Shown here piece by piece: positions 27,230 to 45,661 of a DNA stretch of 64,000 bases. The stretch spans positions 16,577 through 80,576 of the forward strand of contig NZ_LMTZ01000083.1 of assembly GCF_001456025.1 (NCBI RefSeq). Direction: 5' to 3'. Under the pieces are notes generated by a model that was given only the letters and a program-made list of their open reading frames with translations, did no database searches and was not told the DNA's origin. The position numbers and the translations under genes were made by a program. Each line of letters begins with the position of its first letter. The stretch's first letter is position 1. The DNA comes from Mastigocoleus testarum BC008 (GTDB taxonomy: Bacteria; Cyanobacteriota; Cyanobacteriia; Cyanobacteriales; Nostocaceae).

Positions 27230-30200
27230 TTATTTAATAATGTCATCGCATAAGTGTCTATCTTTCTGTTCCAATTCTGCATTAGTTTTCAAATAATCTT
27301 CGATCCAATTGCAGACGTGCTGTAATACAGGTTCAATTTGAAGAAATTTGTCTAAATCCCATAAAATTACTTTATTATCGTTACCTGCAGAAGCAAGTCT
27401 TTTTCCATCTGGGCTAAAAGAAATTCCATTAATTCCATCATTATGTCCTTTAAGAGTTCTTACCAAAGAACCATCTAATTTCCACAGTTTAATAGTGGCA
27501 TCTCCACTTGCAGAAGCAATCATATCTTTTGTGGGATGAAAAGCAACTGCTCTAACTCGACCCGTATGACCCCTAAAAGTTTTGATTACTTTCCCATGAA
27601 GATTCCATAGCTTGAGGGTTTTGTCCTCACTTGCAGATACAATTAATTTACCATCAGGACTAAAGGCAACATCATCTATACCCCTGGTATGACCTTCAAG
27701 GGTACGGAGTAATTGACCGTCAATGCTCCAAATTTTGACAGTATGATCGCCACTTGCTGAAGCTAGTAATTTGCCATCAGGACTAAAAGTTACTTCTTCT
27801 ACCCTAGCCCTATGTGCTAACAAAGTTTTTAGCAAAGTACCATCAGGTTTCCAAAGTTTTATAGTCTGATCGTCGGAAGCGCTAGCAATAATTTCCCCAT
27901 CGGGGCTAAAAGCTACACCTTCAACTTCATTCCTATGATCTTTTAGGCTTAATAAGAAGTAATATCTATTATCTTCACGATCAAATTTCCATAGCCCAAC
28001 AGTATTGTCTTCAGATGCAGAAGCAATTAATTTGCCATCAGGGCTAAAAGCAACATCCTCAACTTTATCACTGTGGCCTCCAAGTTTATTTTTATCTTCT
28101 TCTAAAACCATAATCAGTTTTCCTTGGGAAGTCCAAAGTTTTATGGTTTTGTCATCAGAAGCTGAGGCAATAATCCGATCTATTCCTTCTGGAGATCTGA
28201 TCTTAACAGGACTGAATTCTACGCTTTCGATTTCATCGTTATGTCCAGCCAATATTGTTAGTAAAGTCTCGTTTGGTCGCCAAATTTCTATTCTACTGTC
28301 TTCAGAAGCTGAAGCAATAGCTTTTCCGTCAGGACTAAAAGCAACAGATCTCACCTCTTCATTATGCACTTCTAGGCTGCGGAGCAAACTTCCATTAAGT
28401 TTCCAGAGTTTAACAGTGTGATCGTCGGATGCTGAAGCAATAGTTTTACCATCCGAACTAAAGGCGAGACCGTCAACTCCTGCTTCATGCTTGTTAAAGG
28501 TATATATCTCTTTGCCATCGGTTTGCCATAGTTTAACAGTATTATCATCGGAAGATGAGGCAATAATATTACCATTGGGGCTGAAAACAACTCTATTAAC
28601 ACCAGAGTTATGACCTTTAAGGGTTTTTAATAAAGTACCGTCAATTTTCCAGACTTTGATCGTACCATCTCCACTAGCCGAAGCAATAAGCTGACAATTA
28701 GGACTAAAATTTACTCCCCTAACTTGATCGGTATGTCCTTCTAAAGTTCTCAATAAAGTACCATCAGTTTCCCAGATCTTCGCAGTATTGTCATCTGAAC
28801 CTGAAACAATGAGTTCACATTTTTTACCAAAAGCAACACTGTTAACTCCAGCGTTATGACCTTTGAAAGTGTTCAGTAAAGTCCCATTTGTCTGCCAAAG
28901 TTTGACCGTTCCGTCCTGACTTGCAGAAACAATGTATTTCCCGTTGGGACTAAAAGCAATTCCTCTAACCCAATCACCATGACCTTCAAAGGTTTTAATT
29001 AGGGTACCATCCATTTGCCAGAGCTTGATGGTTTGATCTCGACTCGCCGATGCAAGGAATTTACCATCAGGACTAAAAGCAACGTCATAAACTGCACCTG
29101 TATGTCCAGACAAGATATTTTTCTCTTTTACCTGGTATGCTGCCTGTAAAAGTACTTCTTCTACCTGATTCTGAAGTTTTTTATCTTTCCAATATAAACC
29201 TTTCAATTTTTGCCTTGCTCTTAAGGCTTCGATCGCAGCATCTAAACTTCGATTCAAAGCAAAGGATTCCTCTGAAGAAGCAATTATTGCTTTAATTTCG
29301 TTAACTAGTGCTCTATGGAACTGAAAGAAAGCTACCATTCCCAACGTAGCAGAGACAGCTAATGCAGTGCTTACTGAAGTTAATAAAATTCTCTGTAATT
29401 TAGAAACTTCTCGCTGCTTTGCCAATCGCGCCTCAGCTTCTTGAGTGCGAGCCATTTCAATTTTTTGAACTTCCCGATTGTTTACTACATGGCTAGCAGC
29501 TAAATACTGATAATCTAAATAATTCAAACTATGTTCGTTTGACCAAGCTTGGGCTTCTTCTAGAGATAAACCTCGTAATAATTGTGACTCATCTTTGCGT
29601 TCGGAATTTAACCAAGCTTTCAATGATTCGGAATAAGGTCTGAGTTTTGCTAATTGTTTTTCTACCCAGTTTCTATCAAATACTTCTTCGTAGATGCGGT
29701 TATAAATTTTTATTCGCCCGTTGTGTCTTTTAACTAATCCACTAAGTAATAATTCGACTTGTTCGTCAATTGCTTCATTTGCTGATATCGAATCTAGGTC
29801 TATGATTTGCTGATAAAGTCCTAATAGGCGTCCAGTTTTTTTAGTATTGACTTGGAAGCGATCGCTAATAGTACGTAAATGAGGTGGCTCATCTTTAGAT
29901 GCCCACTGATCGGTAATATAATTTTTAACCAGTTCAGAAATTGAAATGATATTGGGAGTACCTATTTTTTGGGCATAGTACTTAACAGTTAGGCGGCATA
30001 GTTTCTGAGTTAGAAATGGCTGTCCGCCAGTCCAAGCTAATATGTTTTTGAGCACTTCTTGAGGATTTTTTACTTTCCCCACCAAACCCCTAATTAATGG
30101 TTGGGCTTCTTCAAAAGTAAATCCACCTAGTTCAATCGCCCGACCAATATTGAAAGGAGCTCTACTTTTGTTGGCAATTAAATCTGAAGGTGTTGCAACT

Positions 30201-30739
30201 CCCAACAAGGTGAAAGTGATAATTTTATTTTGAACACAAGCACGGATCAGTGCAAAAAAATCGTCGGTGTTGAAAGGTAGGCTTAAAGTACTATCAATCT
30301 CATCGATAAAAATTACTATTGGTTGTGGAATTAGAGTAGGTAGAACATCTTCCAAAAACTCACCCAAAGAACTGACTGGCGAAATATATTGACGTTTTTC
30401 CAACCATTTACGCAAATTGAACTTTTGACTCAGTCCTAAGCTACGAACTAAAGATAGGGTTATATCGGCATACCATTGTTTCTCGGTTGTATTATGACTA
30501 CCAAGACCAGACAAATCAACAACACCACAAGCAACACCATCATTCATTAACCTCTGGGTTACTCGCACTTGCAAACTGGATTTACCTATTTGACGACAAT
30601 TGAGTACATAGCAAAACTCTTTAGCTTTTAAAGCTTGGTAAAGTTCTTTATCAGCTTTTCGTATTACATAGCTCGGAGCATCAATTGGTAAACGCCCACC
30701 TACTTGATATTGGTAATTTGTTAACTTTTCGGTCGCCAT
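27230..30739 (-). CDS. STAND-type AAA NTPase with 14 WD40 repeats
   Basis: The protein has 1169 residues. An AAA-like (AAA_35) NTPase occupies about 15-360, with P-loop [10 protein letters not shown] (47-56) and Walker [10 protein letters not shown] (141-149). A membrane segment is likely at 451-473 ([20 protein letters not shown]). Fourteen WD40 repeats run from 543 to about 1140, each with GH, FSPDGK and KLW signatures, enough for two seven-bladed propellers. The design matches STAND signal NTPases, in which a repeat domain senses a ligand and the NTPase oligomerises. The effector is not obvious, since the N terminus begins directly with the NTPase. Its 3' end exists as a second, decayed copy at 25879-25975. 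Confidence 0.9.
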
Positions 30740-30931
30740 TAGTTCAAGGTGAGTTCAATTAAATAGCACTACAAAGTCGAGCCAAAATAGACCGCGACTT
30801 GGTATCAGCAAAAAATTTAAATAAACCCCCTTATAAGGGAAGATTATCATTATTTGGTTTGTCCAGTAATCTTTTTGTGAAGCGTTGTGCTTATGAGTCG
30901 CAAATTAAATTTCAATGGTTTAGCTCGATTT

Positions 30932-32248
30932 CTAAGTTCTAATATGCTGACGGAAATACTGCCGATACAGTTCGCACCTAGATATTACAGCATTACCTAG
31001 AAGAGATACTAAGCCTATACTATTTAATTTGAAAGCTAGCATTTGTTCCAATTCTACAGGTCCCGTACATTTTAGAACCTGTTCGTAGGCTGAAATTAAT
31101 TCCATATCCTCTTGGAGGTATCCTAAAAGTTGACGTAGATGACTGCGATAAATGCCTGATTCTGTCGCTGCAGATTTTACAAGATAATCCCAGGTTATAT
31201 GTCTTAATGCCAAGTTGTACAAGGTTAGGCGAACTAAAAAAGGGTGACCGCCCAACAATTGCATAAACTGCTTTAGCCTTTGTGGTGATAATTCTAAATT
31301 ATGTAACCGAGCAAGCTTATAGACTTGTTCGGATTTGAATGTCTGTAATTCAATTGCAACTCCTACATTAAAAGGAGATTTATTGGTGTCTAAAGGAATG
31401 TAAACTTCTGTAGAATGGATAATAATTAATCGTAAGTTGCGCCACACCTCACTCCCTTGGGTTCCGTAGGAAGCTTCCTCATACCAAGAACGCAGCATGC
31501 TGAAAAAATCATCAGCAACTTCCAAGTGACGAAATACTTCATCAACTCGATCCAGGGCTAACACAAGAGGTCTTTTTAGGGCTGGTAATAAAAATTCTTG
31601 AAAGTAATGGGTACAGTTGCTTTTACTCCCATAAATTGAACTCCAATGATGCTCGAGTTGATATTGCTCTCCTTCCAAACCCAATTGGTGAGCGATCGCG
31701 CTACAAAACCACTTCAATAAGCGATCCAAATCAGTAAAAACTTTGGCGTCAGCTTTTTGGAAACTTAATGCAACCGTGTAGTACCCAAATTGTCTAGATT
31801 TTTCCAGAATCCTCACCATCAATGAGGTTTTACCCATTTCTAATGGTGCTTTTATTCGCAGCAAAGCCCCCGGTTGTAAAATTGTTTCGTAGCACAGCGA
31901 TTCACCAGGAACGCGTTCTATATAAAATGGGGAGTTTAAAGGTACTATACCTTTAGGAAATTCTAGTTCTCTTTTTTCATGTGTCGGTACTAGTCTATTT
32001 TGAAACTGTTGCCTGAGAACTGAACGAAAGTTATTTTTGGTGATTTTCTCCCCAAAAGCATTAGATAACTTTTGCCATAATTGAGAACCAACACTCCGAA
32101 TGTAATCAGCATCATAACCACAAGTGTTAGCAATTTCTTGGTAAGTATTTCCTTCCCAACATTTACGGAATACTTGTTCCTGAACAACGCTTAAACGGTC
32201 GGGGTGAAAAACTTCGTCTAGAATAGATAACGTATCTTCTATAGTCAT
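30932..32248 (-). CDS. STAND NTPase with vMAP-like N-terminal helix-turn-helix
   Basis: The 438-residue protein begins with an N-terminal domain (1-85: DRLSVVQEQVFRKCWEGNTYQEIANTCGY) like the vWA-MoxR-associated (vMAP) helical/HTH region of cyanobacterial AAA_35 proteins. The AAA_35 NTPase follows, with P-loop APLEMGKTS (134-142) and Walker B LVLALDRVDEV. It has no WD40 tail. It lies 190 bp upstream of the AAA-WD40 gene on the same strand, with both NTPases of one family, so the two may work together. Operon status is uncertain. Confidence 0.82.
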   Translation of the reverse strand: MTIEDTLSILDEVFHPDRLSVVQEQVFRKCWEGNTYQEIANTCGYDADYIRSVGSQLWQKLSNAFGEKITKNNFRSVLRQQFQNRLVPTHEKRELEFPKGIVPLNSPFYIERVPGESLCYETILQPGALLRIKAPLEMGKTSLMVRILEKSRQFGYYTVALSFQKADAKVFTDLDRLLKWFCSAIAHQLGLEGEQYQLEHHWSSIYGSKSNCTHYFQEFLLPALKRPLVLALDRVDEVFRHLEVADDFFSMLRSWYEEASYGTQGSEVWRNLRLIIIHSTEVYIPLDTNKSPFNVGVAIELQTFKSEQVYKLARLHNLELSPQRLKQFMQLLGGHPFLVRLTLYNLALRHITWDYLVKSAATESGIYRSHLRQLLGYLQEDMELISAYEQVLKCTGPVELEQMLAFKLNSIGLVSLLGNAVISRCELYRQYFRQHIRT

Positions 32249-32926
32249 TATAATTTAACGCTATTTTATAAAAAGCGGAAAAATTCGACAGTTACTTTTA
32301 GCTGCAATCAATGAGAAAAGTCGTATTCTGATTTGCAACTATAAAAGTGAAATACTATGTACTTAAGAACCCTTGATTTCTTAATCGAACTGCTATATTT
32401 GAGTCAAGTAAAGGCTTATAAAATCAGTATTTTGACTTGTTATTATACAAATATATACATATTAGACAAAAAGAAATAGCCGAAAGCGACAATTTATGTC
32501 TTACCAAAGGGTAGCTGTTTCTCTGGGAGGTCGAAATTACCATTCATGTGAGTTATTTTTCACTTAGCAAACAACATGTAATACTAGCAAAAAATTACAG
32601 ACATTGAACTAATTTATGTAGTATTAAACCCGAATAAGTAAATACTTCAATAAATGTCAAGCATTTTGCATAAAATAGACAAATTTTAATTGAAGATAGT
32701 TGAGGTATCTTTATATTTCCTCGCTTTCGGGGATAACGAATCAAAGGTATTTAGCTCTTAAATCTTTATTGAAAATAAATAACAATAAAAATTAATAAAT
32801 TCCCTTCAATATCTATTGTTGATATTGAAAGGATCTTATAGCAGATAGCAGGTAAGTAAGGTATAGATAAATAGCTAAAATTTAGGCGTAAAGCTTATTC
32901 CATTCTTAACTCCTGTATTCTGCTCT
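32249..32926. other. 678-bp intergenic region
   Basis: AT-rich, with no gene recognised. CAATATCTATTGTTGATATTG near 32811-32831 is an imperfect palindrome before the end of the photoreceptor gene. Confidence 0.35.
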
Positions 32927-34267
32927 TTATCTGGTCCAAGGAATTTGTCGCATCTTAGTCAAAGCTTTTACTAATGCCTGCTGTTTTTGCATCGTATTCT
33001 GCAAGTTATCAGTTTGCTTATCGAATTCTTGTTGTAGTTGATATTCTTGAACTGCAAAGGCAAATTGTTTACTAATTTCGCGGGCTAAGTCAATTTCTTT
33101 TGCACTCCATTCACAAGATAGAGTCTTAGTGGTATCTCGCCAAGCATTAAGAGATTGGCGAGGGTATAATTGTCTTTGATCTGATTCAAACTCTCCCGCC
33201 CAAAAAGTTTCTCGCTCTAATTTGTTGCGAAAAATACTTAAATATCCCAATAAGTGCTGACGATACTGGAGTGGAATCATTAAGAGACTACAGACTTGAG
33301 AACCTTGAAAAGCAACCTGCAAAAAGCGTAATTCGTGAACTTGATATATATCTGAAATTGCCCAAATATCATAATCACCAGATTTATAATATTCTTGCCA
33401 AACACTATACTGTTCCATCAATTGGTATTTTGCTAGTTTTGGCATTACAGGCTGTTTACCATGGGTATAAAGCTTGAGACTGTCGCTGGAATTTTCCAGA
33501 CAGTCTATAAAGCTGTCAATTTTGTTTCCCTCACTTTTTTTAGCAATACAAAGCCTACCTCCAGAACCACCAAATGCAACAATAGCTTGCGCCAAAGCAG
33601 CTTGTAATTCTACCGTAGATAATGAATGCAATAGAGTAACGACATGCTTGATACTATTTTCTCTAAGATTTCTCTCTGGTACTTGGGAGAGAAGAGTATT
33701 TTGAGCAATTGCTACTGAAATTTGCTCAACAACCATTTGAACCAATTCCAGATCTGCTTCTGAAATCAAACGTGGTTTACTGTGGTGACATGCTAATAAA
33801 CCCCAGAGTTTTCCATCATATAAAATAGGTAAGACAACAGATGATTTGACACCGATGGCTGTCAAATACTCCAAATGACATGGGTCTACTGCACGATAGC
33901 AAATTTCTTCAGAAAGGATCTCTGCCGTTTCCAAATCATATAGTGCGCTTTGAGCAATTTCTTTAGTGTCAACATTCACAATTGACCGCACTCGTACCTT
34001 AAGATATAACTCACGAGTTTCAGCAGGAATTTCATCACCAGGAAAATGTAATCCCAGCATAGATGGTAAACCATCATCATTTACAGATTCAGCAATTACC
34101 TCACCGCTTCCATCCAGGTTAAACTTACAGACTTTTACCCTATCAATTCCCAGGAATAAACGCAGATCTGCAGCAGCAGCGGTCAAAATGACTTTTAATT
34201 CTAACTTTTGACGGATATATTTTGTTATCTGACGTAATACAGTTGTCTCATTGATATTACTATGCAT
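32927..34267 (-). CDS. GAF photoreceptor (phytochrome/CBCR-like) lacking an output domain
   Basis: The 446-residue protein has a first GAF domain (about 15-195) with the bilin-type sequence FPGDEIPAETRELY and a chromophore-type Cys130-His131 in DPCHLEYLTAIGV. A linear tetrapyrrole is therefore probably bound. A second, divergent GAF-like region covers about 215-410. The C terminus stops inside a coiled coil (LQNTMQKQQALVKALTKMRQIPWTR). In related proteins that helix leads into another GAF, a histidine kinase or a GGDEF domain. Just past the stop another frame reads SLDQIKS, close to the usual RESLDL continuation, so a frameshift truncation is likely. Confidence 0.8.
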   Translation of the reverse strand: MHSNINETTVLRQITKYIRQKLELKVILTAAAADLRLFLGIDRVKVCKFNLDGSGEVIAESVNDDGLPSMLGLHFPGDEIPAETRELYLKVRVRSIVNVDTKEIAQSALYDLETAEILSEEICYRAVDPCHLEYLTAIGVKSSVVLPILYDGKLWGLLACHHSKPRLISEADLELVQMVVEQISVAIAQNTLLSQVPERNLRENSIKHVVTLLHSLSTVELQAALAQAIVAFGGSGGRLCIAKKSEGNKIDSFIDCLENSSDSLKLYTHGKQPVMPKLAKYQLMEQYSVWQEYYKSGDYDIWAISDIYQVHELRFLQVAFQGSQVCSLLMIPLQYRQHLLGYLSIFRNKLERETFWAGEFESDQRQLYPRQSLNAWRDTTKTLSCEWSAKEIDLAREISKQFAFAVQEYQLQQEFDKQTDNLQNTMQKQQALVKALTKMRQIPWTR

Positions 34268-34735
34268 TTCCTAAATTCAGTTTAAGTTGATTTAATGTTT
34301 AAATTTGCATTTAAAGAGTATTTTTTTAAATTTTTTAACGTTAGAGTTTTTGGTTCTTAATTCGTAAAATAATCAGAATATTCAACCAAATACTTCATAA
34401 GTTATAACTGGATAACTTATAATTTCAAAACTTAAAACTATTTCCAAGAAATTATTCCATATTGAGCAAGCGATATTAATAGAAGAATATCTAAGTAGTG
34501 ATTATTTGACAAATTTAGGGAGAAATAATTTATAGAAATATAGTTTTTCAGTATATATTATGCTTGATTCTATATTTTTTTCTCCGATAGCACAATCATA
34601 GTTATAAACGCATTAAAATCTACCATGAATCGATTCAATGACAAACAATGACAAAGTTTTTGCCTCTATCCATTACATGCTTGTAAGTATTTAAAATCAT
34701 GTAAATTCAAACAATATAACTTCTAACCACATACA
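34268..34735. other. AT-rich intergenic region
   Basis: No gene, repeat or RNA recognised. It contains the photoreceptor promoter. Confidence 0.3.
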
Positions 34736-35116
34736 TTAAGCATGTGGTAATTTATCTATGTTTAACCATTGCAAAATATTTTCGGGGACTTCTTCGAAAT
34801 GTTCTAGCAAGAAATCCATTAAAGCAAGGTGAAGTAAATCATTTTTTGTTGGGTAGTGCTTATCAGAATTACTTCTAAACCAATTTCTTACAGTAGAATC
34901 AGAGCGATCGCAAATTTGAGCAATATCTTTATAAGTAACACCCCATTTTGTGTAGAACTGCTTTGGTGTCATGCCAAAATCCCAGTTTTTATAAAGTGAA
35001 ATTAGACGCTGTTCTCTCGTGGTGATCTTACGTATCATAGATGTTGCTTTTACTTCAGAATTTTTTTTGTTTCCCAGAGGATATATTCTCATATCTATCT
35101 CGTATTTTTGGAACAC
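34736..35116 (-). CDS. Small helix-turn-helix protein
   Basis: Up to 126 residues. The core (from about residue 28: MIRKITTREQRLISLYKNWD) is followed by a helix-turn-helix-like stretch KQFYTKWGVTYKDIAQICDRSDSTVRNWFR, in which VRNWFR looks like a recognition helix. Specific function is unknown. The longest frame starts with GTG at 35116; ATG 35092 or ATG 35038 (MIRK) are alternatives and no clear ribosome site decides. It is probably a DNA-binding regulator. Confidence 0.6.
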   Translation of the reverse strand: MFQKYEIDMRIYPLGNKKNSEVKATSMIRKITTREQRLISLYKNWDFGMTPKQFYTKWGVTYKDIAQICDRSDSTVRNWFRSNSDKHYPTKNDLLHLALMDFLLEHFEEVPENILQWLNIDKLPHA

Positions 35117-35183
35117 TCAATCAGTAAACTAAATATTTAAAGTTAAATCTGTGATAAAAAGTATGTCTTTGAAGTAAGGAAAT

Positions 35184-35333
35184 ATGGGAAATTGTGAGGA
35201 ATTGATATTACATAATCACACAGCTACTCAGAATTTTGTCGCAACTGGTTTTAAAATAAGACCTCATTTAAATACAAGAATTTTTGATACTTTTAAAGAC
35301 CCCACTATAGAAATTAAATATCAGCTGGTTTGA
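35184..35333 (+). CDS. Possible small protein (49 residues)
   Basis: ATG at 35184 is preceded by AAGGA (35176-35180) at good spacing, and the frame runs 49 codons to TGA at 35331-35333. The protein begins MGNCEELILHNHTATQ and has mixed composition with no membrane helix. There is no known family. It could be a real short gene or a fragment of a decayed one. Confidence 0.3.
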   Translation: MGNCEELILHNHTATQNFVATGFKIRPHLNTRIFDTFKDPTIEIKYQLV

Positions 35334-35609
35334 TTGCCGTGTTCTTCAGCGTGAAATATCCACAATACTTGCAAAATAGAAGATAAATCTTAAGCAATAC
35401 CCACATAATTTATTTAAATTAAAACAAGTTAATCACAAAAATGCCGAAAATTTACGGAGTATTTTAAGTAGCATTATAGGCTATGTTTTGAACAAGATTA
35501 TAAATGATTACATATTTGTGATGTTGTTAGTAGTGATGTCGAGTAATTACTAATCGGTATTAAATTTATCTACTATTCATAACCTATTAGTAACTACTTA
35601 TAAGAAGAA
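35334..35609. other. Intergenic region before the methyltransferase-HIT gene
   Basis: No feature recognised except the start region of the next gene, which has AAGAAGAAATG with only a weak ribosome site. Confidence 0.3.
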
Positions 35610-36476
35610 ATGAAAAACCGAAATAATGAATTCAGTCACCTTACAGCAATAGAAAGGACTAAATTATCATTTCCTGCAAACTTTTTATTAAGAAAACAAC
35701 TACTAAAAGGTAGAATTTTGGACTTTGGCTGTGGCTTTGGAAATGATGTAAAGCTCTTAAAAGCAAAAGGATTGGATATAATTGGGTACGATCCATACTA
35801 TTTTTCTCAATACCCCTATGGTAAATTTGACACAATAATTTGTTGTTATGTTTTGAATGTTTTATTCCCTGAAGAACAAGCGAATGTTTTAATGGAAGTA
35901 TCACATTTATTAAAACCTGGAGGTAAAGCTTACTACGCGGTGAGGAGAGATATTATCAAAGAAGGTTTTCGAGAACATTATGTCCATAAAAAACCAACCT
36001 ACCAATGTATCGTTAAGCTTCCCTTTAAGACTGTATATTTAAATGATAATTGTGAGTTTTATGAATATACTCACTACAATCAACAAATTAATTCATCAGA
36101 ACGCTGTATATTTTGTAATCCGCATAAAAATCTCAAACTATTGACCGAATCTGCCACAGCTTATGCAATGTATGATGGTTATCCTGCAAGTAAAGGTCAC
36201 GTTTTAGTTATTCCTAAACGACATATAAGTAACTATTTTGACTTAGCCTTTAAAGAGCAAGCTGCTTGTTGGTTGATGGTAAATAAAGTGCAAGCATTGA
36301 TCGCTAAAGAATTTGCACCTGATGGATTTAATGTGGGAATGAATATCAATCGGGATGCGGGACAAAATGTTATGCATGCCGGGATTCATATTATTCCGCG
36401 TTATAAGAGTGATGTTACCGGTGCTAAAGGTGGAATTAGAAGTGTGATTCCAAGACGTAGCATGGCATTAAAATAA
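35610..36476 (+). CDS. SAM methyltransferase - HIT domain fusion
   Basis: The protein has 288 residues. Residues 1-135 form a short class I methyltransferase: ILDFGCGFGNDVKLLKAKG (SAM loop, 36-54), DIIGYDP, and FDTIICCYVLNVL. Residues 160-288 form a HIT domain: CIFCNP (166-171, zinc-type Cys pair), AYAMYDGYPASKGHVLVIPK and GFNVGMNINRDAGQNVMHAG. HIT enzymes use HxHxHxx, with the middle His as nucleophile. Here the site reads HAGIHII (256-262), so the middle His is Gly258. Classical nucleotide hydrolase activity is therefore doubtful. The fusion links a methyl donor reaction with a nucleotide-binding fold; the substrate is unknown. Confidence 0.85.
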   Translation: MKNRNNEFSHLTAIERTKLSFPANFLLRKQLLKGRILDFGCGFGNDVKLLKAKGLDIIGYDPYYFSQYPYGKFDTIICCYVLNVLFPEEQANVLMEVSHLLKPGGKAYYAVRRDIIKEGFREHYVHKKPTYQCIVKLPFKTVYLNDNCEFYEYTHYNQQINSSERCIFCNPHKNLKLLTESATAYAMYDGYPASKGHVLVIPKRHISNYFDLAFKEQAACWLMVNKVQALIAKEFAPDGFNVGMNINRDAGQNVMHAGIHIIPRYKSDVTGAKGGIRSVIPRRSMALK

Positions 36477-36483
36477 GCACTAA

Positions 36484-36521
36484 CATACAAGTACTAACAT
36501 ACATGTAGCAATACTTGTATG
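36484..36521. other. Inverted repeat after the methyltransferase-HIT gene
   Basis: CATACAAGTA (36484-36493) and TACTTGTATG (36512-36521) are perfectly complementary. There is no T-tract, so it is a hairpin or processing site rather than a standard terminator. Confidence 0.4.
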
Positions 36522-36692
36522 ATGCTGCAACAACTTCTGTTGCCATTTTTCAAGTTATTGAAAATAATATTCTCCAATAGAATCAAAAAATTCGAAATTA
36601 GCATTTCCCATAGAGTATTTATACATTACAGATTTTCAGCTGGTGCATTTTACTCCAGCTTGAATAGTAACTAATGTACTTGGAAGTGCCAT

Positions 36693-37370
36693 ATGCTGCT
36701 AACAGCCTTACCACGATTAAACTTGAGATCTTTGATGGTAATAAGGGGATTTATTTCCCTTTGGATGAATCTTAATCAAGTCGAATCTGTATTCGATATT
36801 GTGGAGGGAATGCGATATAACAATGCGACTAAATTAGCCGCAAATTACCTCAAGACAAAACCAGAAGTTGAGGAAATAATCAACGAACGTTATGTCGGAG
36901 CAACACCAAATCTAGATGTTTTGCTGGAATATCCGGAAGAATCTTTAGGTTATATATATGCTTCTCATATGAAGAAATTAGGTTTTACACCGGGTTCCTA
37001 TCGTAAGATAAAAATTGAAGATGACATCAGCTATATTCTTTTTCGCATGAGGCAAACTCATGATATCTGGCATGTAGTAACAGGATTTGATACAAGTCAG
37101 ATGGGAGAATTAGGAATTCAATCATTTAGTCTTGCTCAAACCCGTTTACCTATGCCAGTGATATTATTAGCTGGAGGATTGTTTAGAACTATTTTTCAAA
37201 GTCCAGAATTACTTGGAACTTTGTTAGAACAGCTTACTTCTGGGTATACGATGGGCTCTAAAGTGAAACCATTATTTGCTCAAAAGTGGGAAGCAAATTG
37301 GGAGAAGCCTTTGTCTCAGTGGAGAGAAGAACTAGGTATTAATTTATTACATACTTGCGTTTCTGACTAA
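36693..37370 (+). CDS. Coq4-family protein
   Basis: The 225-residue protein has the Coq4 zinc motif HDIWHVVTGFDTSQMGELG (His123, Asp124, His127 and Glu139, the HDxxHx11E pattern). In eukaryotes Coq4 acts in ubiquinone synthesis, where it was recently tied to oxidative decarboxylation of the ring. Cyanobacteria make plastoquinone instead, and the role of their Coq4-like proteins is not settled. It is of normal length and intact. It lies between the methyltransferase-HIT gene and ureC without overlap. Confidence 0.85.
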   Translation: MLLTALPRLNLRSLMVIRGFISLWMNLNQVESVFDIVEGMRYNNATKLAANYLKTKPEVEEIINERYVGATPNLDVLLEYPEESLGYIYASHMKKLGFTPGSYRKIKIEDDISYILFRMRQTHDIWHVVTGFDTSQMGELGIQSFSLAQTRLPMPVILLAGGLFRTIFQSPELLGTLLEQLTSGYTMGSKVKPLFAQKWEANWEKPLSQWREELGINLLHTCVSD

Positions 37371-37607
37371 ATAACTTGTTAGTGAATAATCCCTATTAGT
37401 ATTAACTAGACTCGGCTTTTATTGAATTTTGAGAAAGTCTTAACAATAAATTAGATAGTGTCAGCAATAAAGATTTAAATTTTATAAACTTAAATCTTGT
37501 AGTCATAAATTTATCAGATGAAATTATAAATTTATACAAATAATTCTCACTATATCCTTGAATATGCTCAAAAATATTCAAAGTGATTTAACCGAGCTTA
37601 TTTTTCT

Positions 37608-39329
37608 ATGCCCTACCGAATGTCACGGCGTGCTTACGCTGAAACCTATGGTCCCACAGTCGGCGACCGCGTCCGACTTGCTGATACAGAATTATTTATC
37701 GAAGTCGAACGAGATTTCACTCAATACGGTGAAGAAGTAAAATTTGGTGGCGGTAAAGTAATTCGCGATGGAATGGGACAATCTCCCATCTCTAACAGTG
37801 ATGGTGCTGTTGATATGGTAATAACTAATGCTTTAATTCTCGATTGGTGGGGTATCGTTAAAGCAGATATTGGCATTAAAGACGGCAAAATATTTAAAAT
37901 TGGTAAAGCTGGAAATCCTTATATTCAAGATAATGTAGATATTATTATTGGTCCCGGAACCGAAGCTGTAGCTGGTGAAGGAATGATTCTGACAGCTGGT
38001 GGTATTGATTCCCACATTCACTTTATTTGTCCCCAACAAATCGAAGTTGCGATCGCATCTGGAATTACTACAATGTTGGGTGGCGGTACAGGTCCTGCGA
38101 CTGGCACAAATGCTACTACTTGTACCCCAGGTCCTAATAATATTTACCGAATGCTGCAAGCTGCTGATGCTTTTCCAGTTAACTTAGGGTTTTTGGGTAA
38201 AGGTAATAGCAGTCAACCTCAGGGATTAGTCGAACAATTGCAAGCCGGAGCGATGGGCTTAAAACTGCATGAGGACTGGGGAACTACTCCTGCTGCGATC
38301 GATACTTGTTTGAGTGTTGCTGATAAATATGATGTTCAAGTTGCAATTCACACTGATACTCTCAACGAAGCAGGTTTTGTAGAAAATACCATCGCTGCTT
38401 TCAAAAACCGGGTCATTCACACTTATCATACTGAAGGTGCAGGGGGCGGACACGCACCAGATATCATTAAGGTTTGTGGGGAAGCTAATGTTTTGCCATC
38501 TTCTACTAATCCTACCCGTCCTTATACTTTAAATACTTTAGACGAACATCTGGATATGTTGATGGTGTGTCATCACCTCGACCCTGCAATTCCAGAAGAT
38601 GTTGCTTTTGCTGAATCCCGCATTCGTAGAGAAACCATAGCTGCAGAAGATATTTTGCACGATCTCGGAGCCTTTAGCATGATTGCTTCTGATTCTCAGG
38701 CAATGGGACGTGTTGGTGAAGTCATAATTCGTACTTGGCAGACAGCCCATAAAATGAAAGTTCAGAGGGGTAATTTATCTAAAATTCCTCAAGGAGAAGA
38801 ACAAAGAGCAGATAATTTTCGGGCAAAAAGATATGTAGCTAAGTATACAATTAATCCGGCGATCGCTCACGGCATTTCTGAGTATGTGGGCTCGGTGGAA
38901 GAAGGGAAATTAGCTGATTTATGTTTGTGGCGTCCGGCTTTTTTCGGGGTGAAACCGGAGATAGTTATTAAGGGTGGATTTATCGCATGGTCGCAGATGG
39001 GGGATGCAAATGCAAGTATTCCCACACCACAACCCGTTCACATGCAACCAATGTTTGGTAGTTTTGCAGGAGCGCGTCACGCGACTTCATTGACTTTCAT
39101 TTCCCAAATTTCCCTGGAAAGGGGAATTCCTAGTCAACTTGGTCTACAAAAGAAAGCGATCGCAGTTTCTGGAACTCGTAACTTGAGCAAGAGGGATATG
39201 AAGTTAAATGATGCCTTACCTAATATCGAAGTCGATCCAGAAACCTATGAAGTAAAAGCAGATGGTGAATTATTAACCTGCGAACCCGCTACAGTTGTCC
39301 CCATGGCACAGAGGTATTTTTTGTTTTGA
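37608..39329 (+). CDS. ureC: Urease subunit alpha
   Basis: The 573-residue protein is full length. Nickel ligands and active-site features are visible: DSHIHFI (His-x-His), carbamylated Lys219 in [23 protein letters not shown], and the flap MVCHHLD. It hydrolyses urea to ammonia and carbamate as part of UreABC. ureA, ureB, ureD and the accessory genes are not next to it: coq4 lies upstream and a glutaredoxin-like gene converges downstream. The urease operon is therefore split in this genome. There is no Shine-Dalgarno sequence before the ATG. Confidence 0.96.
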
Positions 39330-39374
39330 AGTATTTTATATTTGCAAGTGTGACTAATAGAACTCCTAAAATCC

Positions 39375-39710
39375 TCAGATAAAATCAAGATCGGGATTTT
39401 GAGCCATAATCTCAGAAATTTCGTCACTTTCAGACACTTCTCGATCAAAAATCTCTTTAAGAAATTTATGATATGCCTTGTAAACGCGCGTAGAACCATC
39501 ATCATCAGTGACGATAAAAAAGGGTGCAGCTTCTACGTTATATTTTGACGCTAAAGCAAATCCTTCACTTGATGGTTCGCGCTCGTCAGCAACTATAATT
39601 TCATTAATTTGGTCAATTAATCCCAAATCTTTTAGTTCTTTGAGGACTTTGGCAGACTTAGGACAATCGTTACCATTCAATGTTATCTTTTTGACGATTG
39701 TAATATGCAT
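39375..39710 (-). CDS. Glutaredoxin/thioredoxin-fold protein, single active Cys
   Basis: The 111-residue protein has LNGNDCPKSAKVLKELKDLG (a CPxS-type monothiol site) and a cis-proline segment VEAAPFFIV typical of the thioredoxin fold. The C-terminal tail is acidic. It is probably a redox or thiol-binding protein; the partner is unknown. It converges on ureC with only 45 bp between the stops. Confidence 0.7.
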   Translation of the reverse strand: MHITIVKKITLNGNDCPKSAKVLKELKDLGLIDQINEIIVADEREPSSEGFALASKYNVEAAPFFIVTDDDGSTRVYKAYHKFLKEIFDREVSESDEISEIMAQNPDLDFI

Positions 39711-39783
39711 AGTATGTAGTAAGTAGTTATTTGGGATTTTGTTAATGTAGCTATTTTAATTTTGAATAAGTTTTAAGTAATAT

Positions 39784-40260
39784 CTACTTAGTTACTTTTC
39801 GAGCTAGAGTATTCAAAGCATTCTCAATTCTTTGAACAGCTTCTTCACCACAATTCTTAAACTTATGGCGGAAAGATAGATATTTTGGACTGTTATAGCC
39901 AAGCCATACTTGCCCTTTTTCATCTTCCCAAATAAGTGCTTTTTGTGGTAGATCTATTGCTGCGCTTTGATTGCACTGCATTAAAGGCGTACCGGCTTTA
40001 GGATTACCAAATATGATTAACCGAGTTGGGCGTAGCTTTTGCTTTACAGATTCTGCTCCTGCTTGGTGGTCAACTTTTGCAACAATGTTTAAACCTTGCT
40101 CTTTGGCAAAAGATTCAAAGCGCTGGGCTGTTTCTGGAACACTGTAGATACTTTTGAATCTTAGTATCCCATCTTTTTTATTATTACTGATTATAGGACT
40201 TGCGTAAGCAGGAGTAATAAATATGCCGCATGCCAAAATAGTTAAGAAAAGTTTTTTCAT
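39784..40260 (-). CDS. Exported DUF302 protein
   Basis: The 158-residue protein has a signal peptide (MKKLFLTILACGIFITPAYA). It has the DUF302 core: SVPETAQRFESFAKEQGLNI, PTRLIIFGNPKAGTPLMQ and AIDLPQKALIWEDEKGQVWL. DUF302 proteins are small alpha/beta proteins of unknown function, often periplasmic. The length is normal. It is oriented like the preceding glutaredoxin-like gene, 73 bp upstream of it, so the two could be co-transcribed. Confidence 0.85.
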   Translation of the reverse strand: MKKLFLTILACGIFITPAYASPIISNNKKDGILRFKSIYSVPETAQRFESFAKEQGLNIVAKVDHQAGAESVKQKLRPTRLIIFGNPKAGTPLMQCNQSAAIDLPQKALIWEDEKGQVWLGYNSPKYLSFRHKFKNCGEEAVQRIENALNTLARKVTK

Positions 40261-40433
40261 AATTTTTTGAAATCAATTATAAATTTTGAAATCAATTATA
40301 AATTTTTGAAATAAAATGCAAATAGAATTGTTGATTCCAGTTAAACAATCTACCTATTTGGGTAATATACTACTTTTCCATGAGGTTTTATCGTGTTAGA
40401 AATGGCTAATTTAAACTAGGTTAATACAAACAC

Positions 40434-40868
40434 GTGAAACCCGAAAATAATACTCAAATAGTACTACTAATTTTGGTAGCTCTTAACATAATTTCTACAA
40501 CGCTGCACTACACGGATAATGCTATCTTTGTCGAGCAATACCCCGAACCCGAATGGTTTACGACAGTAGGAGTTTTTGCCACTCTGATTCTTATGACACC
40601 TTTTGGATTATTGGGTTATTGGCTATATCGGAAAGGACTTTTTTGGTGGTCTTACCTGTGTCTGGGTTTTTATTCCATTACTAGCGTTTCCAGTCCGGGA
40701 CACTACCTGTATCCAATGGTAATTCCAATGTCGGTCAAGATGCATTTGTTGATTTGGTGTGATGCGATCGCTGGATTATCTCTAATTGGTTTTATTATCT
40801 GGTCTGGATTATTTCTACAAGAATGGCAAAAAGGCAAAAAATTGAAATTTAATCAACAAAATAAGTAG
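40434..40868 (+). CDS. Small membrane protein, four predicted helices
   Basis: The 144-residue protein has hydrophobic segments at about 8-26, 44-64, 70-92 and 104-128 (for example IVLLILVALNIISTTLHYTD and LLIWCDAIAGLSLIGFIIW) and a basic C terminus. Family unknown. It starts with GTG at 40434. The coding sequence carries ordinary codon use and a GCGATCGC site. Confidence 0.65.
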   Translation: MKPENNTQIVLLILVALNIISTTLHYTDNAIFVEQYPEPEWFTTVGVFATLILMTPFGLLGYWLYRKGLFWWSYLCLGFYSITSVSSPGHYLYPMVIPMSVKMHLLIWCDAIAGLSLIGFIIWSGLFLQEWQKGKKLKFNQQNK

Positions 40869-40935
40869 TGGTAATTGGTAAATGGTAATTGGTAATTGGT
40901 AATTACTTTTCCGATTACCTATTACCCATTACCAA
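40869..40935. repeat. STRR heptamers between convergent genes
   Basis: GGTAATTGGTAAATGGTAAT heptamers are followed by their inverse (TTACCTATTACCCATTACCA). The two runs together can fold into a hairpin between the convergent membrane-protein and cysH genes. Confidence 0.7.
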
Positions 40936-40945
40936 TCTTGAAAGA

Positions 40946-41698
40946 TTAATTATTCTGTGCTGTATTCATCGAGTGGAAACCACATTCTTTCATTGTTGCT
41001 TCTTCCCACCACCAACGACCTTGACGTTCGTGTTGATGTGGTAAAACAGTTCTCGTACAGGGTTCGCAACCAATACTAACAAAACCTTTGTCATGTAGCT
41101 GGTTGTAAGGAACATTGTTAGCTTCAATATATTGCCAAACTTGCTTTGAAGTCCAATTAGCTAACGGATTGAATTTAATTAGAGTACGTTCTGCAGTCGA
41201 AAAAGCTGAGTCAATCTGAATTACAGGAACGCTTGCACGAGTGGCAGGGTTTTGATCTCTGCGTTGACCTGTAATCCAAGCATCGAGATGGGCTAGTTTG
41301 CGGCGTAGTGGACGCACTTTACGAATACCGCAGCATTCTTTGTGACCATCCTCATAAAAACTAAATAATCCTTTCTCTCTGACTAGATTTTCGACTTCTG
41401 TTGAATCGGGGAAAATTACATCTATTTTAATGCGATATTGCTTTCTTACCCTGTCGATAAATTTGTAGGTTTCCGAATGCAGACGACCTGTGTCGATGGA
41501 AAATACTTGAATATCTTTTTTGATTTTAGATGCCATATCAACCAGAACAACATCTTCCGCACCGCTGAAAGATATGGAAATATTGTCAAACTGCTCTAGA
41601 GCGAAGGCGAGAATTTCTTGCGGACTTTTTGTCGCATATTCTGCTTCAAGTTTGCTAATATCGGCTGATTTAATTAAACTCTCTTTAAGATCGGTCAA
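40946..41698 (-). CDS. cysH: Adenylyl-sulfate (APS/PAPS) reductase
   Basis: The protein has 250 residues with PP-loop-like [12 protein letters not shown], the Cys pairs [12 protein letters not shown] and SIGCEPCTR that bind a 4Fe-4S cluster, and the C-terminal catalytic Cys in KECGFH. The Fe-S cysteines mark the assimilatory APS reductase type. It reduces activated sulfate to sulfite for cysteine synthesis. I start it at TTG 41698 because AAGGAGG lies five bases upstream (41704-41710) and the protein then begins [10 protein letters not shown]. Longer frames starting at ATG 41737 or 41725 would place that strong ribosome site inside the gene. Confidence 0.92.
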
Positions 41699-41737
41699 AA
41701 TCCCCTCCTTATTATACCGAGTCATGCACAACTGCAT

Positions 41738-42208
41738 TTAAAGATATAAGTTACTCTTTAAGTGATTGACATTTGAATTCAAACTTTGCGATCGCAAATT
41801 GTCTGAGCCCCAACTTTTGGCATTCAAAAACTTTTGAGTCGTATCCTCTATCCTAAACTGTTACGAGCACTACAAAAATATATAAGTGGCAAATGACTTG
41901 AAATCCTAATAAAATTTGGGCTTTAAGATGTAGGTCGAAAAGCAAAAATGAAGCTAGTATCAAATCCTATGGCGTTGATGGTGTTTTAGGGAGCTTTTCG
42001 GATTCGGAAGATGTCTTAGAGATCCATTCCGGTTCTGATTTGTCCGGGTTAAAAGTATCAGTATTCGAGCTTAATTTTTAACTTATTGAAGTTTAAAACA
42101 CAACTCAGCCTGTGAAAATTTGAGTGTTTCCAGAAACTAACTCTAATAAATTGCCTGCTAAGAAATAACTCAACTAGAATAGTGATCGTTAAACTAAGGG
42201 GAAACAAC
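41738..42208. other. Intergenic region between divergent cysH and ttcA
   Basis: It must hold both promoters. The stretch 41940-42060 is richer in G/C (GAGCTTTTCGGATTCGGAAG, CCATTCCGGTTCTG) than the rest and could be a leader or old coding remnant. I do not recognise it. Confidence 0.3.
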
Positions 42209-43006
42209 ATGGAAGCGACAAAGGTTGTTCGCTCAAAAACCTACAAAAAATTAGAGGAACGCCTGCGTAGTTTAGTCGGAAAAGCTATCCGCGATTACAA
42301 TATGATCGAAGATGGTGACAAAGTTATGGTATGCCTTTCTGGCGGCAAAGATTCCTACACAATGCTCGACATATTGCTGAGTCTTCAACGTCGCGCTCCC
42401 ATAAATTTTGATATTCTGGCGGTAAATTTAGATCAAAAGCAACCAGGATTTCCCCAACATGTTTTACCAGAGTATTTGCAATCTTTGGGTGTAGAGTACC
42501 GAATAATTGAAGAAGATACTTACAGCATCGTTACAGAAGTGATTCCTCCAGGAAAAACCATGTGTGGTTTATGTTCGCGCTTGCGCAGAGGAATTCTTTA
42601 CCGAGTTGCTAATCAAGAAGGTGCAACAAAAATTGCTTTGGGACATCATCGAGATGATATTGTCGAAACTTTATTTTTAAATATGTTTCATGCAGGTAAG
42701 CTTAAAGCTATGCCTCCCAAACTCCTAAGTGATGACAAACAAAATGTGATTATTCGACCTTTAGCATATTGTCCGGAGCATGATATCCAGAAATATGCAG
42801 AGATTAAGGAGTTTCCGATTATTCCATGTAACCTTTGTGGTTCTCAAGAGAATTTACAAAGAGCGCAAATAAAGCAAATGCTTCAGGCTTGGGAACAAGC
42901 ATATCCTGGAAGAATTGACAGTTTATTCCGCAGCACACAAAATGTCACGCCTTCCCATCTTGCAGATACTCAGTTATTTGATTTTTCAGGCTTAAGCCAA
43001 GAATAA
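42209..43006 (+). CDS. ttcA: tRNA 2-thiocytidine synthetase TtcA
   Basis: The protein has 265 residues from ATG 42209, which is preceded by AAGGGG (42196-42201). Motifs are the PP-loop SGGKDS, the Cys pair [11 protein letters not shown] and the later [13 protein letters not shown]; the family binds a 4Fe-4S cluster through such cysteines. It thiolates cytidine 32 in tRNA anticodon loops. A GTG nine codons earlier is possible but has no ribosome site. Three bases after the stop a 100-bp repeat begins. Confidence 0.93.
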
Positions 43007-43008
43007 AG

Positions 43009-43108
43009 ATGAGAATTTAATAACCTGTAATTCTGAAATTTGGAATGGTGCGTTACGCGATGCTAACAGCACCCTACTTTTGTACTTTATTTAATCCACA
43101 TTCCTAAC
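43009..43108. repeat. 100-bp dispersed repeat, copy 1
   Basis: It is identical to 56489-56588 except for one base (T/C at 43061 versus 56541). The inner part GGTGCGTTACGCG...GCTAACAGCACCCTAC forms an imperfect hairpin and is related to GGTGCGTTACGGCTGACGCC near 51775. It has no coding capacity and looks like a MITE-type non-autonomous element. Confidence 0.85.
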
Positions 43109-43128
43109 TCAAAACTACAGTTTAATTT

Positions 43129-44727
43129 TTACTGACTGACAATGTCTTTGATTGTTCTTAAAGCTGAGATTATCGCCCCTTGAATCCAGCCCTGATCCAG
43201 AGAGCAATGTTCGCCAGCAAAAAACAATTTTCCTTCTGGAGCAATAGTGTCTTCATAATATCGGACAAAATCTCCAGGATTCATAAAACAAAATGCTCCT
43301 CCAGCCCAGTCATATTCATCCCAAAACATTGAAGCGCTATCATCGACCATACCCTCTTCCATTATTTCTGGATGAAAATTAGCGATTGTATTCTTCACAA
43401 CTTCTTCTCTTTTTTTATGGGGTAAAGTACCTAATCTTCTTGCATCTGCACCCCAAGAATAACTTCCAAGTAAGACTCCAGGACCTTTACTAACATCCTT
43501 ATCAATGACTTCTCGGTCGTATCGGACAAATGACGTATGTAATCCTTTAGTTTTACTCATTTTACGAACCGCCATAGGTCTAAAATTATCTGACGGATAA
43601 TAGATGGAACGATTAATTAAATCTGTTTGCGAACCTCCACCAATAATTTTGTACTTACTTTCCCAAAATCTTTCCCTGCAGTGAAGTAATACTTTGATGG
43701 AAGAAGCATAACTCAAATTTCTGATGGCTCTATTTTTAGCTTCACTCAATCCAATTAGTTTAATTCTTCTTAAAACAGCAAAAGGAATAGTGCAGATTAC
43801 ATAATCACAATCAATTGATTGTATGTCACTTTTATCTTTAGTGTTCCTGAGAACAACTTGAATTTTTTCCTGCTGTTTCTCGAGAGAAATTACTTCACGA
43901 CCATAGTTAATGTTTACATTGTCCTGTAGCTTAGAAGCTAAAGTAGTGGGTAATAAGTCCAGACCTCCAACTATTTCGTCCAACAGTCCAGTTTGATTTG
44001 ACTCTCGAGGCTCCTGAGAAATTTCATCGCGAAGAAACATCGTTACAGCTTTGTCCCACCAAACTTCTAACGCAGTAATAGCACCAATTAAATCTAAAGC
44101 ATCTTGACTATTAACAAATCTTCTGAGGAAATCACCTAGTGATAACTGGTCGAGTTCTTGTATTCTGCTGGTTATTGGACCCTTAGCAAACAATGCTTCT
44201 AAGTCTTCTGATTTAGACTTTATTTCCTCAAGCAAAGAGGCAAATGGAGTACCAAGTAGTACCAGTAGATTTTCATCGTTGGCGATCGCTCTCTTGACTA
44301 TTTCTTTCTCTCCAAGAGTTAAATTCAACTTCGGAATTAACTCCTCTAAAGCTTTCTTATGTTGGCTCTTGATTCCTTTGATGTAATAGAAAGCGTCATC
44401 TTCGTCGTGATCGTTAACAAATCTACGGAAGTCTAACTTACATACATCCTTTGCATAATATCTAGTATGGTCATGAGCTTCGGGAATTCTCATCGCACCG
44501 AATTCGTGATATTGACCATCAGCAAATCTTTTTGTCCAAACCCTACCACCGACTCTATTACTAGCTTCATAGATCGTTACTTCGTGACCTAGTTTAGACA
44601 ATTCATAAGCAGAAACTAAACCAGCCATTCCTGCACCAAGTATGACTATTTTTTTGCGTGGTTTTCCATAGTCAATACTGTCAATCTCGTGCAGTTTACT
44701 TTTAATTGGTTCAAAGATGGTGTCCAT
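43129..44727 (-). CDS. FAD-dependent amine oxidase (L-amino-acid oxidase-like)
   Basis: The 532-residue protein has the dinucleotide motif VILGAGMAGLVSAYELSKLG (28-47) followed by the GGR motif in RVGGRVWTKR. It has the substrate-domain segment FHEFGAMRIP-like (YHEFGAMRIPEAH) and the C-terminal FAD segment FFAGEHCSLDQGWIQGAIIS. RxxP-type residues after the GAM motif are characteristic of L-amino-acid and monoamine oxidases, giving a keto acid or aldehyde plus H2O2 and ammonia. No signal peptide is visible. The gene stands alone. Confidence 0.9.
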   Translation of the reverse strand: MDTIFEPIKSKLHEIDSIDYGKPRKKIVILGAGMAGLVSAYELSKLGHEVTIYEASNRVGGRVWTKRFADGQYHEFGAMRIPEAHDHTRYYAKDVCKLDFRRFVNDHDEDDAFYYIKGIKSQHKKALEELIPKLNLTLGEKEIVKRAIANDENLLVLLGTPFASLLEEIKSKSEDLEALFAKGPITSRIQELDQLSLGDFLRRFVNSQDALDLIGAITALEVWWDKAVTMFLRDEISQEPRESNQTGLLDEIVGGLDLLPTTLASKLQDNVNINYGREVISLEKQQEKIQVVLRNTKDKSDIQSIDCDYVICTIPFAVLRRIKLIGLSEAKNRAIRNLSYASSIKVLLHCRERFWESKYKIIGGGSQTDLINRSIYYPSDNFRPMAVRKMSKTKGLHTSFVRYDREVIDKDVSKGPGVLLGSYSWGADARRLGTLPHKKREEVVKNTIANFHPEIMEEGMVDDSASMFWDEYDWAGGAFCFMNPGDFVRYYEDTIAPEGKLFFAGEHCSLDQGWIQGAIISALRTIKDIVSQ

Positions 44728-45661
44728 GGTTAAAGATACTTAATGAATAAATAATGCTGAGTTAGAAATTTCAACGAAAAATCAGATATTGAGTAATTAC
44801 AAAATGATTTCCTCTACTTTGTAAATAAAGGTACTGAAGCAGAAACAAGAGTATTATTTGATGAATAGTGTGACGGTCTTTATATTTGTTATGAAGTTAA
44901 TATATTTTCCGAATACTCCAGTTCCAACACTAAAGCTAGATAATTATTTTCACTCGGCTATTGACAAATGAACTAATTTCTGAAATTTACTAAGTGCAAA
45001 TCAAATAAACTTATGCACTTTCTCTTACATGTATCAGGATTTACGCAACTTTCGCAGTACGCCCCTTAGCAAATAGTGCTTATGTACTATATTAAAAGTG
45101 TGTTTCATTGGATTCACCCAAATTAATAACAATAATTCAGGACTTACGCGCAGACAACCTAAATACAGTCATTGCAACGGTAGGTTAGCAAAGCATTTCC
45201 GCAAGGAAATAGCATTCACTGTAGGTGTGGTTCATCTCAAACCAATGACCTTGCGGTCACGCTATAGCTATAGCTGCGCTACCTGCGGAGCCGCTACCTT
45301 ACGGATCCGCTAATGAAAATTCGTAAATGATGCGTAACTTCTAGATATTTTGAAACTAGCGAAAATGATAATCTTACAATCATTCGTTGGATATATCCCA
45401 GATCCTAAGATTTATAAAGAAGTTACTACAACTGATAATCTACGGTGTACGTTAAATTTTAAAGCAATAAAAGGTATTAACACTCTTATTGACTATAAAT
45501 AAGCAGCAATCAAGTATATAAGTTATATCGGAGGACGGTGGAAATAACCCCATGTACGCATTGGCTGTCGATTTATGAGAGTGAGTGCTTTTTCTGTATT
45601 TGGATTTAGCACCTAAGCTATTTGACGACCTGATAAGAATTCTTAGTAGTGAAATCAATAA
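44728..45661. other. Intergenic region with repeats and possible gene debris
   Basis: Near 44810-44930 a broken frame reads FVNKGTEAETRVLFDE, stop, CDGLYICYEVN, which looks like a decayed gene I cannot name. The next part carries dispersed repeats (45125-45320). Confidence 0.35.
45125..45320. repeat. Dispersed repeats including an inverted copy of the GGATCCG element
   Basis: CAGGACTTACGC starts a non-coding block. At about 45262-45313, CTATAGCTGCGCTACCTGCG and CTTACGGATCCGC match in reverse the GGATCCG...CAGGTAGCGCAGCTATAGG element found near 51841, 56187 and 56323. Confidence 0.65.

Follow-up and report, generated by a model that had tools for sequence, protein, structure and literature searches.

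In HIT enzymes the middle His of the histidine triad acts as the nucleophile. The closest described counterpart of the protein analyzed here is a laboratory mutant, Fhit H96N (PDB 2fhi), which likewise has the HIT fold with the middle His replaced and the other triad His kept; the portions of a review at hand describe it as binding its substrate tightly without cleaving it, while the tumour-suppressor effect is kept (PMC4074825). The bacterial HIT/Hint hydrolases (1y23, HinT) have the fold, the pocket residues and the Gly-Gln before the triad in common with our protein, which is 36–37% identical to 1y23 but lacks the nucleophile and is fused to a methyltransferase. A HIT domain joined to an unrelated enzyme is also found in NitFhit (1ems, a nitrilase-Fhit fusion judging by its PDB title), where the partner enzyme differs. 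For the methyltransferase half, the nearest named family is TIGR04096 (DNA phosphorothioation-associated putative methyltransferase), whose N-terminal part is related to it (62.5 bits, residues 10–85; 29% identity over 112 aa to one member), although this score is far under the cut-off of 150 and leaves the protein outside the family. No HIT match was found in the two TIGR04096 members scanned, and no Ssp or Dnd gene was seen beside the gene studied here. HNH nucleases of Dnd and BREX loci, e.g., wHTH-SAD-HNH, have been described (PMC10853773, PMC12839542); in the portions of these papers at hand, the word HIT is absent from the former, and in the latter it occurs four times, never for the domain, with no occurrence of "histidine triad".

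Here we describe a methyltransferase-HIT fusion gene in a 64,000-nucleotide stretch of the Mastigocoleus testarum BC008 genome (hereafter the window). In comparison with Fhit H96N, the change is natural, extends across most of a branch and is recurrent, the domain is fused to a methyltransferase, and ligand binding is putative.

Methods

Homologues were gathered from 60 genomes including the own one (59 with some match, 31 with a full-length match), from the best 80 of 488 relatives in a genome collection, and from the genomes with a match in the phylum (41 of 386), in the order (143 of 388) and in the phylum of a non-cyanobacterial member, L080 (15 of 296). These samples overlap and a subset of the matches was fetched, giving 217 loci that represent 187 distinct proteins. 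For comparisons by site, 122 representatives were grouped by position 258 into 75 cyanobacterial proteins without the His, 36 non-cyanobacterial proteins with it and 10 cyanobacterial proteins with it; one HNH-linked member without the nucleophile (L211) was excluded from these groups and from those used for dN/dS. Alignments A2 and A4 were made without rows containing internal stops. An AlphaFold2 model was built with 79 sequences (mean pLDDT 89.9, pTM 0.87).

Domain organization of the gene

The features of the gene, in window coordinates, are as follows.

35610..36476, + strand: methyltransferase-HIT fusion gene, 288 aa plus stop, starting with ATG (ORF list, Pfam, full-length homologues)
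35610..36080, + strand: class I SAM methyltransferase half, about residues 1–157 (Pfam; fold match to 7bgg over model residues 4–156; viral-contig relatives that match this half alone)
35715..35747, + strand: SAM-binding motif region ILDFGCGFGND, residues 36–46 (invariance in alignment A2)
36090..36422, + strand: HIT domain, about residues 161–271 (Pfam PF01230; Foldseek and VIA-align to 1y23, Fhit and Hint)
36105..36116, + strand: CIFC pair, C166 and C169 within residues 166–169 (both Cys in at least 90% of 116 sequences, A2)
36375..36377, + strand: first triad His, H256, codon cat (His in 186 of 187 distinct homologues)
36381..36383, + strand: lost nucleophile position, G258, codon ggg (codon reading and homologue counts)
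36387..36389, + strand: last triad His, H260, codon cat (His in 187 of 187 distinct homologues)

The first half scores as Methyltransf_23 (residues 24–111, 47.6 bits against a cut-off of 27) and has the Rossmann fold and glycine-rich motif I of class I SAM methyltransferases; L37, D38, G40, G42, G44 and D46 do not vary among the 116 A2 sequences. It resembles small-molecule methyltransferases (7bgg, Z 13.8; 3h2b, Z 12.9), and the motifs that mark N6, N4 or C5 DNA methyltransferases, [DNS]PP[YFW] or PC[QN], are absent from the 288 residues. The second half has both the fold and the profile of the HIT superfamily (residues 176–266, 68.3 bits against a cut-off of 21.5). Structure prediction, which the initial annotation had proposed as a check, agreed with this assignment, as the HIT half of the predicted model matches 1y23 with a Z score of 16.8 (rmsd 1.6, 106 residues), the Fhit H96N-ligand complex 2fhi with 14.8 (rmsd 1.9, 104 residues), and also Fhit and Hint by Foldseek and VIA-align; in whole-model searches the match lists were filled by this half.

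Residues 256–262 read HAGIHII, and alignment to the Bacillus subtilis HIT protein 1y23 places its middle His opposite G258, so that the initial annotation was correct on this point by translation, codons and alignment alike. Among the features of active HIT enzymes, the flanking triad His, the Gln before the triad and an acidic or Asn residue contacting the ribose are present (H256, H260, Q252 and D189, the last of which we take to be the ribose-contacting residue by carrying its role over from Fhit/Hint), and the middle His nucleophile of HxHxH is replaced by G258. In RefSeq such fusions go by the name "bifunctional class I SAM-dependent methyltransferase/HIT family protein"; a literature search by the first part of this name found no paper.

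Window positions 27424–45424 recur on contig C83 of the same assembly, 100% identical over 18,001 bases. This assembly is listed as 37.5% contaminated, and the C83 copy is probably an assembly duplicate, hence it lends no independent support to Gly258. Just downstream of the fusion gene lies a gene for a Coq4 domain protein (36693–37370, + strand), and the window also encodes a 1169-aa protein with 14 WD40 stretches (27230–30739, − strand).

Position 258 across homologues

The middle His is absent in 133 of the 144 distinct cyanobacterial homologues, where position 258 holds Ser (72), Asn (21), Ala (18), Thr (15), His (11), Gly (4), Leu (2) or Gln (1); the Asn of Fhit H96N thus stands at this site in 21 of the 144. 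In the 43 distinct non-cyanobacterial proteins it holds His in 42 and Ala in one. L211 (genome G877), with the triad HAALH and Thr at the position of N241, is the only HNH-linked member read without the nucleophile. The initial annotation had asked whether Gly is fixed among homologous fusions, and this can be ruled out, with Gly in 4 of 187 distinct sequences and Ser as the commonest replacement. The nearest relative (L002, 93% identical) also has Gly. The retention of the first and last His and of the CIFC pair, likewise claimed from the single sequence, was borne out across the family; the sole exception at H256 is L216, which has Gln. As controls, HxHxH is intact in HinT from every one of the 20 relatives fetched, as it is in L252 and L255, two further HIT proteins encoded by the own genome. 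As read from these alignments, the loss of the His at 258 is neither chance nor a sequencing slip, because 133 of 144 cyanobacterial homologues are without it and the nearest relative has Gly as well.

A first tree of 122 proteins, made with column 258 left out, requires at least five changes between His and not-His, three of them forced by supported branches. In a more careful tree of 58 of the 122 rows, for which every third row was taken from two large groups and the long rows L211, L215, L216, L086 and L208 were left out, at least five changes are again required and four are forced, with the 11 non-cyanobacterial rows together across one 100/100 branch; a partial sequence, L217, was set aside from both. 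Counts of this kind cannot tell gain from loss, and the changes are read as repeated losses given an ancestral His, as the other phyla suggest. Among cyanobacteria, the His is kept in a single MAG (L030/L074/L149) and in members of one family, f14, where Asn, Gln and Leu are also found at this site. Asn is encoded by AAT in all 21 cases and Ser by AGT or AGC in all 72, never by TCN, and several early-branching cyanobacterial rows of the careful tree have Asn. The codons would fit a path from His (CAT) through Asn (AAT) to Ser (AGT), with Thr, Ala and Gly reached later.

Constraint on the HIT half

In the nucleophile-lost group, E180, P192, H197, K203, N241, N245, Q252, H256, H260 and P263 are each conserved in 75 of 75 sequences and D189 and R264 in 74 of 75, both exceptions being L180 (G425). 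This fusion gene has two in-frame stops; together with L008 (G056), whose fusion gene is likewise interrupted in frame, it may represent a broken gene or an assembly error. When positions within residues 160–281 were counted as shifted if a residue was present in at least 90% of the non-cyanobacterial group and in less than 70% of the lost group, only 193, 258, 272 and 274 qualified. Of these, 258 is the only triad member, its contrast arising by construction since the groups were defined by it, and 272 and 274 lie in the C-terminal tail. Residues 179, 185, 191, 221 and 223 are fixed only in the nucleophile-lost group, and position 228 changes there from Lys to Gln.

With pairs picked greedily and a simple counting method, dN/dS for the methyltransferase, middle and HIT parts was 0.114/0.090/0.116 in 56 nucleophile-lost pairs, 0.057/0.042/0.090 in 6 non-cyanobacterial pairs and 0.132/0.099/0.092 in 4 His-keeping cyanobacterial pairs. 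On these estimates purifying selection on the HIT half is clear and roughly equal in strength to that on the methyltransferase half. The constraint appears somewhat weaker in the lost group, both in the HIT half (0.116 vs. 0.090 and 0.092) and, relative to the non-cyanobacterial pairs, in the methyltransferase half (0.114 vs. 0.057). A pseudogene or decaying domain is ruled out for the family by these ratios, although single copies may be broken.

Gene neighbourhoods

In all 45 non-cyanobacterial loci, representing 43 distinct proteins (L080–L086, L088–L110 and L203–L217), the gene immediately upstream of the fusion has the same orientation and encodes an HNH nuclease. The gap to the matched start of the fusion gene, taken in 30 loci, was 82 nt at one locus and between −16 and +21 nt at the other 29. 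An HMM built from two clusters of these nucleases (24 and 6 members, about 15% identical to each other) matched 44 of the 45 upstream genes, of which 30 had built it and 14 were independent matches, and the five members scanned (L082, L081, L217, L211, L216) belong to PF13395 (HNH_4). At L214 a different nuclease, PF13391 (HNH_2), occupies the same place, which argues for a functional need for a nuclease there. No match to the HMM lay beside the fusion gene in any of the 172 cyanobacterial loci, even at an E value of 1 and with at least 1 kb of upstream sequence in 163 of them.

A search of the HNH model against the PDB gave nothing at E < 0.001, with Cas9 as the best match. PADLOC, run on six HNH or methyltransferase-HIT proteins, returned only weak partial matches to ThsC (HIT part), mad2, Cas9 HNH and PDC-M01B; none of these six had a strong match to a named anti-phage defence family. 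Neither PADLOC nor NCBIfam names the pairing of the fusion with the HNH gene, and the literature searches listed no description of the fusion or of the pair. In 120 of the 190 eligible neighbour proteins from 30 non-cyanobacterial loci, candidate defence families detected by PADLOC had two or three members each among the 25 of 126 families listed, a count without a matched control from which we draw no conclusion. Transfer on mobile elements was also rejected, as 80% of the Bacteroidetes member L082 was covered by none of 72,556 plasmid records (106 with any match) and by none of 50,697 phage records (37 with any match).

Several related arrangements were seen along the way. In L217, the first ~80 residues of the HNH frame (2356–3795, − strand) match methyltransferase domains, a possible methyltransferase-HNH fusion that adjoins a divergent, partial methyltransferase-HIT match. 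An HNH relative on a viral contig (L278, 62% identical) is followed downstream by a gene other than methyltransferase-HIT, showing that the HNH gene can occur without it. A further 22 viral-contig relatives (L256–L277) match the window protein within residues 1–157 only and are without HIT, the five complete ones read being 147–165 aa long; by eye, those in L259, L261 and L270 lie just after a sigma-factor-like gene.

The cyanobacterial neighbours are mixed. Among the nearest upstream genes, scanned with Pfam in 92 of 113 loci, a Uma2 putative restriction endonuclease was found in 22, the others being ABC-2 membrane proteins, Hsp70 and more, and no HNH was present in the 25 of 85 families listed. 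Clustering places a Uma2 gene 64–166 nt upstream of the fusion, in the same orientation, at 22 of the 113 loci (e.g., L033, L059), all of them with Ser at 258. These loci may have regained a nuclease neighbour, an idea to which we give little weight because Uma2 genes are common in cyanobacteria.

Of 60 cyanobacterial genomes, 17 encode homologues of the HNH nuclease, 13 of them with an alignment spanning 310 or more of 351 residues; these genes are located either on a different contig from the fusion gene or a long way from it. Ten such loci were fetched, and four were scanned in part with PADLOC and NCBIfam. Beside the HNH homologue, these four had matches to DndA/SspA and TIGR04096 (L223, G057), to DndC, DndD and SspC (L226, G047), to TIGR04096 (L227, G056), and to SspB and SspD (L228, G048). 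By eye, L229 is similar to phosphorothioation loci, and L222 (own genome), L224, L225, L230 and L231 are not. Some cyanobacterial HNH copies carry an HTH-like extension at their start, again as seen by eye. The HNH of L228 is 32% identical to that of L082 over its length; from this and the TIGR04096 kinship, HNH nucleases of this family and methyltransferases of the fusion's type meet in two settings.

Counting only branches in the His state, the His-keeping cyanobacterial clade has three to four losses on a total of 1.94 substitutions per site, as against one (L211) on 10.23 in the HNH-linked set. The binomial split (0.014 or 0.003) makes a link between absence of the HNH gene and loss of the nucleophile suggestive only, with few events, phylum and linkage confounded, and a contrast picked after looking. 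The nucleophile persists in eleven distinct cyanobacterial members that have no adjoining HNH gene, and L211 has lost it beside one, thus the absence of HNH neither always leads to the loss nor is needed for it.

Discussion

On balance, and with modest confidence, we read the protein as a methyltransferase with a binding-only HIT domain. The HIT half would no longer form the covalent nucleotidyl-His intermediate. Like Fhit H96N, it would still bind its ligand, a nucleotide or something similar, and the bound ligand may be presented to the methyltransferase or gate it. The initial annotation had already proposed a domain that only binds nucleotides and feeds or regulates the methyltransferase, and the missing nucleophile with the retained pocket residues fits this; the ligand binding itself, and any feeding or regulating of the methyltransferase through it, stays putative.

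Folding or dimerisation could instead account for the conserved residues. Dimers are common among HIT proteins, and the nucleophile position tolerates seven other residues, as might be expected if the HIT half were a ligand-free scaffold that keeps the dimer together and stabilises the methyltransferase; we consider this distinctly unlikely, since H197, N241, N245, Q252, H256 and H260, which have no obvious folding role, are present in every one of the 75 nucleophile-lost sequences. The same retained pocket, with both outer His, would also suit a HIT half that is still a hydrolase or transferase, working by direct attack of water or through another nucleophilic residue. This is improbable, as Ala, Gly or Leu occupies 258 in 24 of 133 distinct lost sequences, so that no replacement nucleophile is needed there, and Fhit H96N does not cleave, according to the portions of the review at hand (PMC4074825). 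By sequence, the candidate substitutes would be the newly fixed residues 179, 185, 191, 221 and 223 and the changed residue 228.

A special case of the binding-only reading is that the HIT half holds the very nucleotide that the methyltransferase half methylates, e.g., a dinucleoside polyphosphate or a capped RNA end. The fusion architecture is in its favour and HIT proteins act on dinucleoside polyphosphates. According to the portions of a 2020 paper at hand (PMC7044304), the enzymes that methylate bacterial NpnN caps had yet to be identified at that time. The methylated caps come from Escherichia coli, with no direct link to this family, and we regard this case as quite improbable. As for Gly258 being a private mutation or a sequencing error, which its presence in only 4 of 187 distinct sequences might invite, the probability is practically negligible. 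The initial annotation had reasoned that homologues with the usual HxHxH would make Gly258 private; such homologues do exist, in Bacteroidota, Ignavibacteriota and 11 of 144 distinct cyanobacterial proteins, but the loss, shared by 133 of the 144, by L002 with the same Gly and by other lineages with other residues, spans most of the branch and recurs.

Returning to the binding-only reading, the cyanobacterial protein looks like the derived, mostly orphaned half of a two-gene module. The ancestor would have been an HNH nuclease with a methyltransferase-HIT protein, an arrangement still present outside cyanobacteria, and once the HNH partner was gone the hydrolytic step may have become unneeded, so that binding alone was maintained, if the events took this order. 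A bolder version, rather unlikely as a whole, would be that an undescribed HNH and methyltransferase-HIT module couples HIT chemistry on a nucleotide or nucleic-acid end to DNA cutting, and that cyanobacteria lost the nuclease and repeatedly converted the HIT enzyme so that it does no more than sense a nucleotide or hold a substrate and in this way drives a solitary methyltransferase; this would be a natural, evolved counterpart of Fhit H96N.

These results point to a pair formed by an HNH nuclease and a methyltransferase-HIT protein, kin to parts of phosphorothioation loci and unnamed in the libraries used. The natural, repeated replacements of the nucleophile, together with close relatives that keep the His, would offer paired natural proteins for the question of binding versus cutting by HIT domains that was raised for Fhit.
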